A DNA stretch of 64,000 nt from assembly GCA_017549205.1 (NCBI GenBank), contig JAFYVH010000002.1, positions 1 through 64,000 on the forward strand. Direction: 5' to 3'. Source of the DNA: Clostridia bacterium. GTDB lineage: Bacteria > Bacillota > Clostridia > UBA1381 > UBA9506. Shown here piece by piece: positions 23,257 to 60,148 of this stretch (the stretch's first letter is position 1; each line of letters opens with the position of its first letter). The notes below the pieces were generated by a model that did no database searches, was not told the origin of the DNA, and was given only the letters and a program-made list of their open reading frames with translations. A program made the position numbers and the translations under genes.

Positions 23257-23285
23257 TTGCAATTTCTCTGTGAGTGTGGGATAAT
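23257..23285 (+). promoter_or_regulatory. Promoter-like sequence entering repeat copy A
   Basis: TTGCAA and GATAAT are 17 nt apart. The end of the -10 hexamer is also the first part of the sequence shared with the second repeat copy. Confidence 0.45.
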
Positions 23286-23395
23286 AGACACATACAGAAT
23301 TTCGCTTCATAAAAGTCTCATTTAGACGCCATGACAAACGGCAGTGCCTTCTAAATCGCCAGCTGGTTTTAAACGGAGAATGGTCAAGTGTCATT
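23283..23395 (+). repeat. MITE-like dispersed element, copy A
   Basis: Positions 23281-23314 match 28090-28123 at all but four positions (ATAAT, one change, a 16-base identical block, a three-base change, then TTCATAAAA). The ends are imperfect inverted repeats, AATAGACAC and GTGTCATT. A small GTCT/AGAC hairpin lies inside. Later shorter matches to copy B (CGCCAT, CTGGT, GTGTC) suggest the same origin. The element forms most of the leader in front of the methyltransferase-like gene. Confidence 0.55.
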
Positions 23396-24904: not shown

Positions 24905-25016
24905 CAAACCATTTGCACAACTGACGGATTTGCGGGTAACCGCAGGGGAGTGTAAATGGATATATGCCGACCGTCTGGGCAATTCAACTTAATGATAAGC
25001 TGGATTGCTCTTTTTT
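24905..25016 (+). promoter_or_regulatory. ZTP riboswitch (pfl motif) with terminator expression platform
   Basis: P1 is formed by 24909-24918 and 24950-24959. Inside it lie the conserved CTGACGG strand, a TGCGG/CCGCA hairpin and GGGGAGTG. The second conserved part reads GCCGACCGTCTGGGCA; its CCGTC (24971-24975) pairs with GACGG (24923-24927) as the pseudoknot. A 10-bp terminator (24977-24986 with 25001-25010) with six T shares the CTGGGCA strand, so ligand binding should prevent termination. ZTP/ZMP signals a shortage of 10-formyl-THF; PFL supplies formate for it. This is the class first named after pfl genes. Confidence 0.95.
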
Positions 25017-25052
25017 AGACGCCAGCCAAATACTGCAGAGGAGGGGATACAT

Positions 25053-27284
25053 ATGAAACATGAAAACTGGACAGGTTTTACCGAAGGTATCTGGCAGGAT
25101 GAAATTAATGTTCGCGATTTTATTCAAAAAAATTATAAAGAATATAAAGGTGACAGTGCATTTTTAGCATCAGCAACAGACCGCACCAAAGAACTGATGA
25201 AAAAGGTTCAAGAGCTTTTTGCGCTCGAGCAAAAGCGTGGTGGCGTTTTGAATGTTGACACCGAAACGGTTTCCTCTCTCACCAGCTATGAGCCGGGCTA
25301 TATTGACAAAGAAAATGAAATTATTGTAGGTCTGCAAACCAATCACCCTTTAGAAAGAGGCATCAACCCCTTTGGTGGTATGAGAATGGTTCGTCAGGCT
25401 TGCGAAGCCTATGGCTATAAGGTGAGTGACAAAATTGAAGAAGAATTTCGTTTCCGTTCCACACATAATGACGGCGTTTTTCGTGCTTACACCGAGGAAA
25501 TGAGAAAGGCCCGCTCAAGCCATGTTATCACAGGCCTCCCCGATGCTTATGGCAGAGGCAGAATCATTGGTGATTATCGCCGTGTCGCCCTTTATGGTGT
25601 TGACAGGCTTATTGAAGAAAAAGTTAAAGATAAGAAAAATCTTGCAAATTACGATTTTAATGCCGATACCATTCGTCTTGATGAAGAGCTTTATAAACAA
25701 ATTGACTTTCTTGGTCTTTTAAAGAAAATGGCGGCTATGCACGGGTTTGATATTTCTGCCCCTGCAAAAAATGCCAAAGAGGCAATTCAATGGACCTATT
25801 TTGGCTATCTGGCGGCCATTAAAGAGCAAAATGGCGCTGCTATGTCCCTTGGTCGTGTCAGCACATTTTTTGATATTTACATTGAACGCGACTTGGCACT
25901 GGGCATTTTAACCGAAGAAGAAGCGCAAGAGCTGATGGATGATTTTGTGATTAAGCTTCGCCTTGCCCGTCATTTGAGAACCCCTGAATATAATGAGCTT
26001 TTTGGCGGTGACCCCATGTGGATTACCGAGGCTGTTGGCGGCATGGGTGAAGATGGAAGAACTTTGGTGACAAAAAACAGCTTCCGCATGCTTAACACCC
26101 TTTACACTCTTGGTTCGTCGCCTGAACCGAACCTCACAATTCTATGGTCGGCGCAGCTTCCTGAAAACTTTAAGCGGTTCTGTGCCAAAGTTTCCGCCGA
26201 CACGGATTCGATTCAATATGAAAATGATGACCTTATGCGTCCCATTTATGGTGACGATTATGCCATTGCCTGCTGTGTTTCAGCTATGAAGATTGGCAAA
26301 CAGATGCAGTTCTTTGGCGCTCGTTGTAATCTGGCAAAGCTTTTATTAATTGCCTTAAACGGCGGTTATGACACATCAAGCAACATACATATCGGCCCTC
26401 AAATGCCGGTCATGGCAGGGGAGAGCCTTGATTTTGATGAAGTGATGAAGCGGTTTGACACATACATCAGCTGGATTAGCCGTCTTTATGTGAACACCAT
26501 GAACATCATTCATTACATGCATGATAAATATGCCTATGAAAAAATTCAGATGGCACTTCACGATACAGAAGTTGAGCGCTTGATGGCCTTTGGTGTAGCC
26601 GGTCTTTCGGTTGTTGCCGATTCTCTCAGTGCCATTAAATATGCCAAAGTTCGTCCCGTGAAAAATGAAGAGGGCTTCATCACCGGTTTTGAAACAGAGG
26701 GTGACTTCCCGAAATTTGGTAACGATGATGACCGTGTTGACTTAATTGCAAAAGACATGACACATAAGGTCATCACAGAGCTTCGCAAAACCGAAACCTA
26801 CAGAAATGCGGTTCACACCCTTTCTGTTCTCACCATCACATCCAATGTTATGTATGGTAAAAACACTGCCGCAACCCCTGATGGCAGAGCAGCCGGAGAC
26901 CCGTTTGCCCCCGGTGCAAACCCCATGCATAACCGTGAAGAAAACGGCGCTTTGGCATCTTTGAACTCGGTTGCAAAAATCAGTTATGACGATTGTCGTG
27001 ATGGCATCTCCAATACTTTCTCCATCACGCCCGATGCTTTGGGTCGAACGGAAGAAGAGCGCATTGCCAACCTGGTTGCGATTTTAGACGGTTACTTTGC
27101 AAAAAAAGCACATCACATCAATGTGAATGTTTTGCATCGTGAAACCCTGATGAAAGCCTATGAAAATCCGGAGGCGTACCCAAACCTCACCATTCGTGTT
27201 TCGGGCTATGCGGTTAACTTCTGCAAGCTTTCCCGGGAACAGCAGCGCGAGGTTATCAGCCGCACTTTCCACGAGGCAATGTGA
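25053..27284 (+). CDS. pflB: Formate acetyltransferase (pyruvate formate-lyase)
   Basis: This glycyl-radical enzyme converts pyruvate and CoA to acetyl-CoA and formate, central to anaerobic sugar fermentation. The 743-residue protein has the catalytic cysteine pair C407-C408 (ACCVSAM) and the radical glycine G718 in RVSGYAVNF near the C-terminus. The N-terminal FNPFGGMR-like segment ([11 protein letters not shown]) is also typical. GAGGAGGGG supports 25053; the longer open frame runs into the riboswitch. Expression is under a ZTP riboswitch, linking formate production to the one-carbon pool, and it overlaps pflA by one base. Confidence 0.97.
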
Positions 27285-28065: not shown

Positions 28066-28094
28066 TTGTAAAAACTGACACAATATGCTATAAT
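28066..28094 (+). promoter_or_regulatory. Promoter-like sequence entering repeat copy B
   Basis: TTGTAA and TATAAT with a 17-nt spacer. The gene that follows is on the opposite strand, so a transcript from here would consist of the hairpin-rich element only. Confidence 0.45.
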
Positions 28095-28305
28095 TGACAC
28101 ATACAGAATTTTATTTCATAAAATTCTTACGAGCTAGCGCTCTTTTGTGCTCTTTCGAGCACCGTGTCAATTGACGGCGTCGTAAAAACGCCATTGCAAG
28201 CAAACATTTTTACTCCTGGTAAAATTGGAATCTAAATTGTGTCCGGTATTATAAAACCCCTAAAGTCTTTCGGGTTTTTACGGTCTGCTGACCACTGTGT
28301 CAATT
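28092..28305 (+). repeat. MITE-like, hairpin-rich element, copy B
   Basis: The ends are a perfect 10-bp inverted repeat, AATTGACACA (28092-28101) and TGTGTCAATT (28296-28305). The 14-base word GTGTCAATTGACGG occurs at 28164-28177 and 28297-28310. Seven short hairpins follow one another: 28106-28126, 28131-28142, 28147-28162, 28176-28192, 28208-28224, 28253-28278 and 28282-28293. The first 34 bases match copy A at 23281. No open frame is present. It may be a small mobile element or a structured noncoding RNA. The 333-base gap between pflA and the next gene contains only this and the pfl terminator. Confidence 0.6.
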
Positions 28306-55061: not shown

Positions 55062-55125
55062 GACAAATTTTTTATATAATATAGTAAAATTTATTATATT
55101 AAATAAAAACATTCAATGCTAAAAT
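55062..55125 (+). promoter_or_regulatory. Shared activator box and promoter of the GH5-like gene
   Basis: The 37 bases at 55062-55098 match 57958-57994 at 34 positions. The box ends 22 bases before an extended -10 (TGCTAAAAT, hexamer 55120-55125), and the -35 region is poor (TATTAA). This is the layout of a promoter that needs an activator next to RNA polymerase, presumably the AraC-family protein encoded nearby. Confidence 0.7.
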
Positions 55126-55155
55126 GGAATATATAACACAAAAGGAGAGATGAAC

Positions 55156-57003
55156 ATGGAATTTATTTTGGGCTCAAACTATTGGGCGTCCAATGCTGGT
55201 GCCGAAATGTGGCGTGATTATGATATTGATGCGATTAAAGAAGATGTAAAACAAATGGCCTATTATTGCATGAAGCACATCCGGGTGTTTCCCAACTGGC
55301 GTGACTTTCAACCGGTTATGCCGCTGCTTGCTGGCGGTGGCGAATTTTATAAATATTGTCTTGAGGGTCAGCGAGAAAGCACAAATGAATATTATCTCGA
55401 TGAGGTGATGCTTTCTCGTTTTGCTGAGTTTTTGGATGTGTGCAAGGAATATAACATTAAGGTTATTGTGGGCCTCATCACAGGTTGGATGAGTGGAAGA
55501 ATGTTTATTCCCCCTGCACTTTATGGAAAGAATGTGATAACCGATACAGAAGCGATATACCTTGAGTTGCTTTTCATCAAGGGCTTTGTTTCGCATTTTA
55601 AAGACAGAGAAGAAATTCATTCATGGGATTTGGGGAATGAATGTAACTGCATGGGGAAGGTAGCAAACCGACTGGAAGCAGCAACATGGACGGCTATGAT
55701 TTCCAATGCCATTCGTGCAGAAGACCCCAGCCGCATGGTCGTTTCAGGCATGCATGGCTTGTATATGGATAAAAAATGGACGATACAAGACCAAGGTATG
55801 TTTACTGACATGTTGACCACCCACCCCTATCCTTTCTGTGGTGAGTTTACAAGAATTGACGAGATTTTGTCTTATCGCACCTCGATGTATCCCACTTGCC
55901 AGACAAAATATTATTCTGAAATCGGCAAAGTGCCCTGCATGGCAGAAGAAATTGGAACCTTTAGCCCTATAATGTGCAGCGATGAAAATGCAGCGGCCTT
56001 TTTAAGACTCAATCTTTTATCTCTGTGGGCAAATGGTGCTTGCGGTCTTATGTGGTGGTGTGCCAACGACCAGGACAAGCTCACCACCTTTCCCTATTCC
56101 ATTGAAATGTTAGAGCGTGAGCTTGGTATGTTCAAATCGGATAGAAAGACAAAGCCTGTTTTGGATGAGATGAAGCGTTTTTCAGAGTTTCTTGACGGCC
56201 TTTCTTTCCGGCTGCCCCCTGCACAGACGGATGCTGTGTGCCTTTTGAGCCGAGACCAAGCGCATTGGGGCGTGGCCTATATGACCTATATCCTGGCAAG
56301 AAGAAGTGGGCTTAACATTCGATTTGCTTATGCCGATGAAGAAATACCCAAAGCAAATCTTTATCTTTTGCCCTCTGTTAACGGCATTAACATTTTGAAT
56401 AAAGACCGGTATAATGAACTTTTGGAGGCTGTCGATAACGGGGCAGACTTGTACATGTCCTTAGATTGCGGATACCTCAGCGGATTTGAAAGCCTGACAG
56501 GATTAAAACCCATTGATTCTTATGAGTATGCCGAAGCGGGCTATACTGAATTTGCAGGCAGACGGTTTGAGTTTGCAAGAGTACGCAATTTAATGACAGA
56601 ATCTGCCGGTGCACAAGTTTTGGCAAAAGACAATAAAGGCTATCCTGCTATCTCGGTGTATAATCATGGCAAAGGTCGTGTCTTTTATGTGAACTTCCCT
56701 CTTGAAAGTGGCCTGCTTGATAAGCACGATGCATTTAACGGTACCCATTATGAAGACATTTATAAAACTCTTTTTGCTGAATATGCAAAAGCCTATCCCA
56801 TTTGCGTCAACGATGAGGATATGGTTTTAACTTATCATGATGGCGAAGACGGAAAATATGCCGTTATTTTAAATCATTCTCATGAGAAAAAGGCACTCGA
56901 CATCTCTTTTGCCAAAGGCTTTAGCATTGACAAAGTCATCTATGGCAATGCAAAGAGCGTTGGTGCATGGGACGGTGTGATTTTAAAACTGAAAACGGAA
57001 TAA
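55156..57003 (+). CDS. GH5-like cytoplasmic glycoside hydrolase
   Basis: A 615-residue protein without signal peptide. Residues 1-330 form a TIM barrel of clan GH-A, closest to cellulase-like GH5: WDLGNECN with the likely acid/base E162 and CMAEEIGTFSP with the likely nucleophile at E264 or E265. A Rossmann-like second domain (about 370-500) recalls the one following the barrel in GH42-type enzymes, then a small beta domain. Being intracellular, it should split imported oligosaccharides or glycosides. The shared box with the isomerase-kinase operon suggests a mannoside substrate. AAAGGAGAG favours 55156 over the ATG at 55150. Confidence 0.8.
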   Translation: MEFILGSNYWASNAGAEMWRDYDIDAIKEDVKQMAYYCMKHIRVFPNWRDFQPVMPLLAGGGEFYKYCLEGQRESTNEYYLDEVMLSRFAEFLDVCKEYNIKVIVGLITGWMSGRMFIPPALYGKNVITDTEAIYLELLFIKGFVSHFKDREEIHSWDLGNECNCMGKVANRLEAATWTAMISNAIRAEDPSRMVVSGMHGLYMDKKWTIQDQGMFTDMLTTHPYPFCGEFTRIDEILSYRTSMYPTCQTKYYSEIGKVPCMAEEIGTFSPIMCSDENAAAFLRLNLLSLWANGACGLMWWCANDQDKLTTFPYSIEMLERELGMFKSDRKTKPVLDEMKRFSEFLDGLSFRLPPAQTDAVCLLSRDQAHWGVAYMTYILARRSGLNIRFAYADEEIPKANLYLLPSVNGINILNKDRYNELLEAVDNGADLYMSLDCGYLSGFESLTGLKPIDSYEYAEAGYTEFAGRRFEFARVRNLMTESAGAQVLAKDNKGYPAISVYNHGKGRVFYVNFPLESGLLDKHDAFNGTHYEDIYKTLFAEYAKAYPICVNDEDMVLTYHDGEDGKYAVILNHSHEKKALDISFAKGFSIDKVIYGNAKSVGAWDGVILKLKTE

Positions 57004-57012
57004 TAAATAAAG

Positions 57013-57040
57013 CGCGACCACAATTTTGTGGTCGCGTTTT
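57013..57040. terminator. Bidirectional terminator between the GH5-like and araC genes
   Basis: CGCGACCACAA and TTGTGGTCGCG form a nearly complete palindrome with AT-rich flanks on both sides. Confidence 0.82.
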
Positions 57041-57053
57041 ATATGCCCCAGGC

Positions 57054-57935
57054 TCACATTTTTTTGTTTCTTGAAGCAAGTGGTGCACAGCCTTTAATGC
57101 TTTTATACACCTTTGAAAAATAAGCAGCGTTGTTAAAACCGCATTCACGGCAAATTTCAGTTGCTGATTTGTTGGTGTTCATAATTAGGTTCTCGGCACA
57201 GTTAATTCGGATGATATTTAAATATTCTTTAAAACTGTTGCCGGTTACGGCTTTAAAGGTGCGGGAGAAGTAACTGTAGCTTATGTTGAGCATGTCGCAC
57301 AGCTTTTGGCAGGTTATGTCTTCTTTAAAATTCTGTGTGATATATTCTGTGGCTTTATAAATGGCTTGTGCCGTTTCTTTTCGAAGGTCTAAGTCAGTGT
57401 TGCAAGCTGCATTGCCGCCGTTTTTTATCATGGACAGAAGAATCATTTCCGTTGCAATTTTTGACAAAACATCTGCATATTTTTTCCCACTGCCAAATTC
57501 GTTTATAAGAAGATTAAATCCGTCTTTTATATGGGCGGCGCTACCTTCCATTTCCTCTTTTTTCCAAACACACTTTGTGTTTTGCCGGTCCATGATAAAG
57601 CTTAAGGCGTATTCTTCTTCGTGGGCGGGAGTTGCAAGATTTTTAATGGCATCGGGTCGGATTTTGAGCACATAGTAAAAGCTGTCTTTTTCCTCGCCTG
57701 CTATAATATAATGAATGGTGTTTGAACGAAACAAAATGGCGTCGCCTGCAAAAAGATGATAGATTTTATCGTCGACGTAAATGGTGAAATGGCCTTTTTG
57801 AATGTAAAGAATTTCCACACTGTTATGCAAATGTGCTTTAATAATAACCTGATGAGGCAGAGAATCTTGTCTGAAGAAGCAGATACCGTTTTGGTATTCG
57901 TCATGGTCATCCCGTTCAATTATATAGTCTCTCAT
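57054..57935 (-). CDS. AraC-family transcriptional regulator
   Basis: A 293-residue regulator with an N-terminal cupin (about 15-100, sugar-binding type, with HLHNSVEILYI and HLFAGDAILF) and a C-terminal pair of helix-turn-helix motifs (about 190-290) with LCDMLNISYSYFSRTFK and ICRECGFNNAAYFSKVYK. It is divergent from the isomerase-kinase operon and convergent with the GH5-like gene, both of which carry the same upstream box. It is therefore the likely sugar-responsive activator. The start at 57935 follows GTGGTG; a longer frame reaches into the box. Confidence 0.92.
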   Translation of the reverse strand: MRDYIIERDDHDEYQNGICFFRQDSLPHQVIIKAHLHNSVEILYIQKGHFTIYVDDKIYHLFAGDAILFRSNTIHYIIAGEEKDSFYYVLKIRPDAIKNLATPAHEEEYALSFIMDRQNTKCVWKKEEMEGSAAHIKDGFNLLINEFGSGKKYADVLSKIATEMILLSMIKNGGNAACNTDLDLRKETAQAIYKATEYITQNFKEDITCQKLCDMLNISYSYFSRTFKAVTGNSFKEYLNIIRINCAENLIMNTNKSATEICRECGFNNAAYFSKVYKSIKGCAPLASRNKKM

Positions 57936-57957
57936 TTTTTCACCACGCCTTTTGTAT

Positions 57958-58021
57958 GACAAATTTTTTATAGAATCTAGTATAATTTATTATAGCATAT
58001 AAAATCAATAAATGCTACAAT
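57958..58021 (+). promoter_or_regulatory. Shared activator box and promoter of the isomerase-kinase operon
   Basis: Second copy of the 37-bp box (57958-57994), again ending 22 bases before an extended -10 (TGCTACAAT, hexamer 58016-58021). The box also lies just upstream of the divergent araC start, so autoregulation is possible. Confidence 0.72.
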
Positions 58022-58053
58022 GATTTATATAAAATCTAAAAAAGGAGATTTAA

Positions 58054-58602
<549 letters not shown>

Positions 58603-59550
58603 ATGAAAAAAACAGATGTAACGGCATTGGGTGAAATTTTAATCGACATGACCTATGCCGGCAAAAGCGAAGCAGGGCAGACCTTGTTTGAGCAAAACCC
58701 CGGCGGAGCGCCTGCCAATGTTCTGGCAGCAATATCAAAGCTGGGCAAAAAAACGGCTTTCATTGGTAAAGTGGGAAATGATATGCACGGTGAATTTTTA
58801 AGAAAAACAGTTAAAAAATATGGCATTGATGACCATAACCTTATTACTACAGATGAAGCATTCACAACCCTTGCCTTTGTATCCCTTTCAGAGAGTGGTG
58901 AAAGAACATTTTCTTTTGCACGTAATCCCGGAGCAGACATTATGCTCTCAAAAGAAGATGTGGATTACGACTTGATTAAAAATAGCTTCATCTTTCACCT
59001 CGGTTCCCTTTCTTTAACACATGAGCCCGCTAGAACAGCCACTTTTTCGGCACTTAGCTGCGCTAAGGAAAACGGCGTTATTGTGTCTTATGACCCCAAT
59101 TACAGAGCTATGCTCTGGAAAAATGAAGAAGCAGCCATCAACGGCATGCGCTCACCTCTTTCGTATGTGGATATCATCAAGCTTTCTGATGAAGAAATTG
59201 AACTTGTGACAGGTCAAAAGACACCGGAAGAGGCTATTGATTATCTTTTGGGCATGGGTGTTTCTTGTGTTGTTGTGACTATGGGCGCGAAAGGCGCAAT
59301 GGTTGGCATTAAATCGGGTAAAATTTTTAAAGAGTCAAAGCCCTGTAAGCATGTGGTGGACACAACCGGAGCAGGCGATTCCTTTATGGGCGGATTTTTA
59401 TATAAACTGTGCGAAAACAATTTACGCCCCGATGAACTGACTTTAGAAAATCTTGCGGAGTTTACGGAGTTTGCCAATAAGGTTGCATCTTATTGCATTG
59501 GCAAGCGGGGCGGCATTAATGCCATGCCGACTTTAGATGAGGTGAATTGA
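58603..59550 (+). CDS. PfkB-family carbohydrate kinase (fructokinase-like)
   Basis: A 315-residue ribokinase-fold kinase starting immediately after the isomerase stop codon. It has GEILIDM, the substrate-loop NPGGAPANVLAA, YDPNYR, and the C-terminal PfkB signature DTTGAGDSFMGGFLY with the catalytic aspartate. The GGAPANV form and overall sequence are close to ScrK-type fructokinases. With the isomerase it would turn mannose into fructose-6-phosphate. The operon ends with a hairpin terminator 28 bases after the stop. Confidence 0.9.
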   Translation: MKKTDVTALGEILIDMTYAGKSEAGQTLFEQNPGGAPANVLAAISKLGKKTAFIGKVGNDMHGEFLRKTVKKYGIDDHNLITTDEAFTTLAFVSLSESGERTFSFARNPGADIMLSKEDVDYDLIKNSFIFHLGSLSLTHEPARTATFSALSCAKENGVIVSYDPNYRAMLWKNEEAAINGMRSPLSYVDIIKLSDEEIELVTGQKTPEEAIDYLLGMGVSCVVVTMGAKGAMVGIKSGKIFKESKPCKHVVDTTGAGDSFMGGFLYKLCENNLRPDELTLENLAEFTEFANKVASYCIGKRGGINAMPTLDEVN

Positions 59551-59577: not shown

Positions 59578-59613
59578 CAGCGTTGCAGCTTTTATGTGCA
59601 ACGCTGATTTTTT
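59578..59613 (+). terminator. Terminator of the isomerase-kinase operon
   Basis: CAGCGTTGCA pairs perfectly with TGCAACGCTG around a 9-nt loop, followed by six T. Confidence 0.88.
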
Positions 59614-59647
59614 GTTATTTGAAAAGTGTACGAAAAGAGAGATTTAT

Positions 59648-60148
59648 ATGAACAAAGAAAAACTAAAATATAGTCTTTTTTGCTTATTCTCCCTTGTTTT
59701 AATGCCTTTTTCCGCGCATGCCAACATGGTTTGGCCCTCTCTTTACATTGCGGAGGGTTTAAGAAGCTGGTATGTGATTTTGATTGGTCTGATTATCGAA
59801 ATTGTATTTGTTAAATGCTTTTTAAAAGAAAGCTTTTTAAAATCAGTTTTAATTGCCTTTGTTATGAATTTAGTTTCTACAGTTTTGGGCGTTGTTTTAA
59901 TCCCCTTAAGCGGATTTATGGGCGAGTTTTTAATGATACCCTTTGACACGGCAACCTTTCATCTCAGTCATTGGCTTTTCAGCTATGTTTTGGCTATGCT
60001 TTCCAATGTGCTGATTGAGGGACTCTGTGTTACAATTATTTTTAAACATAAATTTGGTAAAATATTTTGGTGGCTTTGCGTTGCCAATGCCATCAGCATT
60101 ATCATTTGCATTTTATTTCATGGTCTTACAATGCCTAATCTTATGTAA
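59648..60148 (+). CDS. Membrane protein of unknown function
   Basis: A 166-residue protein with about five hydrophobic segments. The first resembles a signal sequence ending near AHANMVWPSLYIAEG, followed by SWYVILIGLIIEIVFVKC. I do not recognise a named family. No catalytic motif is visible. The ATG at 59648 follows AAAAGAGAGA; the open frame runs 18 codons further upstream through the terminator hairpin. It has its own promoter and is followed closely by dtd. Confidence 0.65.
   Translation: MNKEKLKYSLFCLFSLVLMPFSAHANMVWPSLYIAEGLRSWYVILIGLIIEIVFVKCFLKESFLKSVLIAFVMNLVSTVLGVVLIPLSGFMGEFLMIPFDTATFHLSHWLFSYVLAMLSNVLIEGLCVTIIFKHKFGKIFWWLCVANAISIIICILFHGLTMPNLM

Follow-up and report, generated by a model that had tools for sequence, protein, structure and literature searches.

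A 37-nt box at two promoters as the predicted operator of an AraC-family regulator in a Clostridia genome

In the araC-araBAD system of Escherichia coli, regulator and operon are transcribed divergently, the activator site lies next to the −35 element, and AraC controls its own gene. MtlR of Pseudomonas fluorescens recognizes at promoter PmtlE a site of at least 37 bp, made up of two blocks of 15 bp each, set 22 bp apart at positions −72 to −58 and −50 to −36 (PMC4514859). The AraC-family rhamnose regulators predicted in Bacillales, Bacteroides and Enterococcus have unique motifs, share the layout of a 21-bp direct repeat, and each governs a local sugar regulon (PMC3870299).

The locus described here lies in a window of 64,000 nucleotides from a Clostridia bacterium (GenBank assembly GCA_017549205.1, contig JAFYVH010000002.1, positions 1 to 64,000 of the forward strand). 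Its two boxes resemble the MtlR site in their 37-bp length, in the 22-bp distance between half-sites and in their location at about −70 to −34, and differ from it in sequence, host and targets; moreover, the predicted operator also serves a second unit and the promoter of araC itself. The repeat layout fits that of the rhamnose regulators, whereas the window AraC is not orthologous to them and probably serves a different sugar. Divergent placement, a site by the −35 position and autoregulation (predicted in the window) are shared with E. coli AraC; in contrast, no looping site was identified in the window, the araC −10 element falls inside the operator itself, and the protein scores 68.5 against the cut-off of 208 of the NCBIfam AraC model. 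It is well supported that this is a small sugar regulon of a well-known, ordinary kind, the overlap between operator and promoter being its only unusual trait. Its interest is that genes lacking annotation, in a gut Clostridia genome that has no closely related studied organism, gain a regulator, an operator motif and a probable pathway. The motif can also help in annotating regulons related to this one, and the way operator and regulator promoter overlap offers a simple, testable feedback design.

The two boxes and their promoters

Box 1 (55062-55098, plus strand; GACAAATTTTTTATATAATATAGTAAAATTTATTATA) precedes the GH5 gene, and box 2 (57958-57994, plus strand; GACAAATTTTTTATAGAATCTAGTATAATTTATTATA) is located in the divergent region between araC and lyxI. 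They are identical at 34 of 37 positions, lie on the same strand, and in both the distance from the box end to the −10 hexamer is exactly 22 positions. The extended −10 element of the GH5 gene is TGC-TAAAAT (55117-55125, plus strand; hexamer starting at 55120) and that of the lyxI-kinase operon is TGC-TACAAT (58013-58021, plus strand; hexamer starting at 58016). The −35 candidates at 15-19 nt spacing reach at most 3/6 at both promoters. The initial annotation, which had noted the shared bases with three differences in one orientation, their constant distance to the extended −10 and the poor −35 regions, was thus accurate on these points.

The likeness is concentrated in the box: identity between the two regions is 9/40 upstream, 34/37 in the box, 15/21 in the spacer and 18/30 from the −10 element on. 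Both boxes are very AT-rich (GC content 8-14%), and 300 dinucleotide shuffles of both intergenic regions gave a best match of 27/37, while 100 shuffles of the window contained no copy of the box. Among the repeat families of the window the pair ranks first (83% over 75 nt). A chance origin of the likeness is excluded. A repeat element, which would also have explained the pair, is excluded too, since a search of 1.39 Mb of the same genome, 92% complete, found only two full copies and none was present in the 19 family relatives searched.

With the transcription start placed about 7 nt downstream of the −10 hexamer, the boxes would span about −70 to −34. In box 2, AATTTTTTATAGAATCTA (half-site 57962-57979) and AATTTATTATAGCATATA (half-site 57984-58001) form an imperfect tandem repeat, identical at 15/18 positions and 22 bp apart. 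Box 1, which has no divergent araC promoter inside it, shows its two half-sites about 22 bp apart with a less well kept period (12/14 positions). In AraC-family operators the half-sites follow each other in tandem at about 21-22 bp, beside or across the −35 position, and we annotate both boxes as predicted operators of this kind.

The regulator, its target genes and the proposed mechanism

The araC gene (57054-57935, minus strand, ATG at 57935) lies between the two units, as had been read initially, and encodes a regulator of 293 amino acids with a cupin sensor at the N-terminus, as is typical of sugar regulators (PF02311 and PF07883, both above cut-off), and a C-terminal double HTH (PF12833, E 4e-20; PF00165 above cut-off). 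It falls below the NCBIfam equivalog cut-offs for AraC, RhaS (59.2 against 288), MelR, ChbR and HpaA. The upstream unit encodes a GH5 glycosidase of 617 amino acids (55150-57003, plus strand; PF00150, 27.1 against a cut-off of 23.5), whose nearest solved relatives, an endo-beta-mannanase (7bob) and the GH5_18 beta-mannosidases, are mannan-active but distant. The other unit begins with lyxI (58057-58602, plus strand), a cupin D-lyxose/D-mannose isomerase by its fold family (PF07385, 23.5 against 20.8) and its structural relatives (7nzo, E 3e-63; 2y0o, E 1e-59), with which the metal and catalytic motifs EHRH, K.ETFR, the H of NTLHWF and SEFS.. are aligned and kept. A fructokinase-like PfkB sugar kinase follows (58603-59550, plus strand); it belongs to the PfkB family, its nearest solved structures are fructokinases, and it scores 212.7 against the fructokinase equivalog cut-off of 450 (NCBIfam PRK09434). 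The kinase gene is followed by a small ORF (59594-60148), rich in hydrophobic residues and with no Pfam or NCBIfam match.

We propose, with a probability of about 0.85, that the box is the operator of this AraC protein, which activates the GH5 and lyxI promoters of a mannoside pathway and regulates its own gene. In the model, an AraC dimer would occupy the two tandem half-sites at about −70 to −34 of both promoters and, together with its inducer, would recruit RNA polymerase to promoters with an extended −10 and no usable −35 element. On box 2 the dimer would cover the extended −10 of araC, blocking araC while activating lyxI. The GH5 enzyme would trim a mannoside, probably a beta-mannoside, the isomerase would convert mannose to fructose, and the kinase would yield fructose 6-phosphate.

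The kinships of the GH5 enzyme, the isomerase and the kinase, together with the mannoside-type neighbours of the module in other genomes, make the use of mannose, probably from mannose-containing glycans, the best guess at the pathway. An isomerase relative from Thermofilum uses mannose at under 2% (PMC8378251), so the substrate of lyxI is not readable from homology. The two-gene lyxI-kinase module also occurs under a different regulator: at locus L028 (2138-7493) of one relative, another AraC-type regulator is followed by a large hydrolase, similar by eye to GH38 alpha-mannosidases, and then by lyxI and the kinase.

The module at homologous regulators and in profile searches

AraC homologues were sought in 20 genomes of the family, 391 of the class and 398 of the phylum; the class and phylum searches scored at most six candidates per genome, and may have missed orthologs. 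No AraC at E ≤ 1e-40 was present in the 19 family relatives, and the phylum search added no further homologue among the at most six candidates scored per genome. The best homologue found among such candidates, 40% identical, belongs to genome G387 of another family of the class, and the protein of its congener G468 is 89% identical to it. The recognition-helix stretches SYSYFSR and FNN..YF.KV are near-identical between these proteins and that of the window, and in both genomes araC has a rightward unit on either side, the arrangement seen in the window. Both carry the module upstream of araC, and G387 has it at its other unit too, with a spacer one base longer; in the homologue promoters the two half-sites recur at a nearly equal distance from TGnTA--AT. 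The divergent regions start with TAGCAAATTTTTTGCATTTCATAGCAAAATTATTGTAGCATA (G387) and TAACAAATTTTTTTTATTTTTAAGCAAAATCATTGTAGCATA (G468), compared with TGACAAATTTTTTATAGAATCTAGTATAATTTATTATAGCATA in the window, and the distance between GCATA and the extended −10 that follows it (TGGTACTAT, TGGTATTAT, TGCTACAAT) is 13 nt in all three. The recurrence of the module at the divergent promoter of AraC homologues in other species ties the box to this regulator and to no other factor; the initial annotation's single AraC regulator for both units is thereby upheld, with activation as the probable mode. Footprinting here draws on few and distant sites, the closest ortholog found being 40% identical.

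Pairwise matches between window and G387 are weak on their own in such AT-rich DNA, and profiles were therefore used. When built from just the window pair, a profile lacked specificity in AT-rich DNA. Circularity was limited by building a profile from three non-window sites, picked for their position beside homologous araC genes. In the window it ranked 57955-58026 (plus strand) first (E 1e-5), the minus strand of the araC-lyxI region second (E 5e-5) and the GH5 box at 55062 third (E 0.004); scores as high were reached by 0/2000 shuffles of the araC-lyxI region and 4/2000 of the GH5 region. A second profile without window sites also placed 57955-58026 first in the whole genome, at an E value of only 0.015. 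When the window sites were included, the profile gave two sites outside its training set. One (E 9e-7) is the same operator at an araC paralogue in G387 and the other (E 0.007) lies, in the same-genus genome G018, between an araC homologue (28% identical) and lyxI (75%).

The AraC-type regulators of these genomes are alike in operator-promoter module and divergent placement and differ in their targets: GH99-like and MGH1-like glycosidases adjoin those of G387 and G468, and the targets at the G018 locus are lyxI and a GH42 enzyme, compared with GH5, lyxI and the kinase in the window. G468 has a weaker site (E 4e-4; L157, about 1501-1567) in front of a GH99-like gene, which may be a further regulon member there. 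The reading frame of the G387 paralogue (L128, 4093-5025) is interrupted, and its divergent neighbour likewise seems to be broken; a GH38 reading of that ORF found no confirmation in Pfam. Upstream regions of lyxI homologues that lack this AraC (L027-L038) were aligned and contain no box, consistent with a site that follows the regulator. The GH5 homologues of other families were discarded as regulon members, their loci having neither a close AraC homologue nor a site, and a match at G094:C52 (E 1.5e-4), flanked by unrelated genes, was taken as chance.

Within its own genome the regulon appears limited to the two boxes. The next matches had E values of at least 0.3 (R1), about 0.1 (R2) and 0.07 (R3), none of them convincing; a weak match at C14:82860 covers the proximal half only, beside genes unrelated to sugar use. 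Further members, above all a sugar transporter, had been anticipated, and the searches of the 92% complete assembly found none with the box. The expected transporter is either not regulated by AraC, or encoded in the missing 8%, or preceded by a site too diverged to see.

Autoregulation of araC and alternative readings

The predicted extended −10 of araC (TGCTATAAT, 57989-57997, minus strand) is located about 54 nt before the araC ATG, within the promoter-proximal half-site of box 2, and is the mirror image of the extended −10 of lyxI. This strengthens the initial suggestion that araC might control itself. In an alignment of seven sites, ATTRTANCA is present in 5/5 divergent araC regions, giving TGnTAYAAT towards araC, and both sites without a divergent araC, box 1 (ATTATATTA) and the second G387 unit (TTTATAGCG), have lost the TG. 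Small as the sample is, this pattern would be expected if the half-site doubles as the −10 element of araC. Such doubling would account for the matches of the region on both strands, the minus-strand match covering the lyxI promoter region at 57981-58043, and the restriction of the TG to divergent sites implies that araC is autoregulated, most likely by repression. A bolder and tentative proposal, to which we give somewhat less than even odds, is that these proteins form an undescribed AraC subfamily in which the proximal half-site also serves as the extended −10 of the regulator gene, in mirror image to the target −10. A single bound dimer would then activate the target and shut off araC, and the module would be kept across Clostridia families while the mannoside-degrading targets change.

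The same overlap could be read in the opposite sense. If AraC bound the box as a repressor relieved by the sugar, a site covering the −35 position of both promoters and the −10 of araC would be well placed, and promoters with an extended −10 can function in the absence of a −35 element; nevertheless, a box end at about −34 is where activator sites of the family usually lie (PMC4514859), and the −35 regions of both promoters are poor, scoring 3/6 at most, which makes repression of the two units unlikely. The extension of the likeness beyond the box, to 83% over 75 nt, might instead suggest a recent copy of a promoter segment, by duplication or gene conversion, with no shared regulator site. This is highly improbable, given that conservation is far higher in the box than in spacer and flanks and that the module is conserved at araC homologues of 40% identity in other species, and yet the second site could still have arisen by copying. 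Scarcely any weight, slightly less again, goes to the site of another global factor, a sigma-factor element or an AT-rich UP-like element: the boxes are indeed AT-rich and just upstream of promoters, but a global element would be frequent, whereas the genome holds only two copies, both flanking araC. The earlier reading, an AraC operator shared by both units, is thus supported.

Elsewhere in the window, intergenic DNA had been described as otherwise not conserved. The box pair does stand first among its repeats, but a second intergenic repeat (23281-23318 and 28090-28127, 87% over 38 nt) begins at a TATAAT-like hexamer and contradicts the general statement. The segment 28094-28250 folds well as RNA (z −3.9), has no Rfam match, and may be a structured leader or a small RNA. 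A ZMP/ZTP (pfl) riboswitch (24907-24987, Rfam RF01750) is located upstream of a gene named from its sequence as pyruvate formate-lyase-like (25005-27284).
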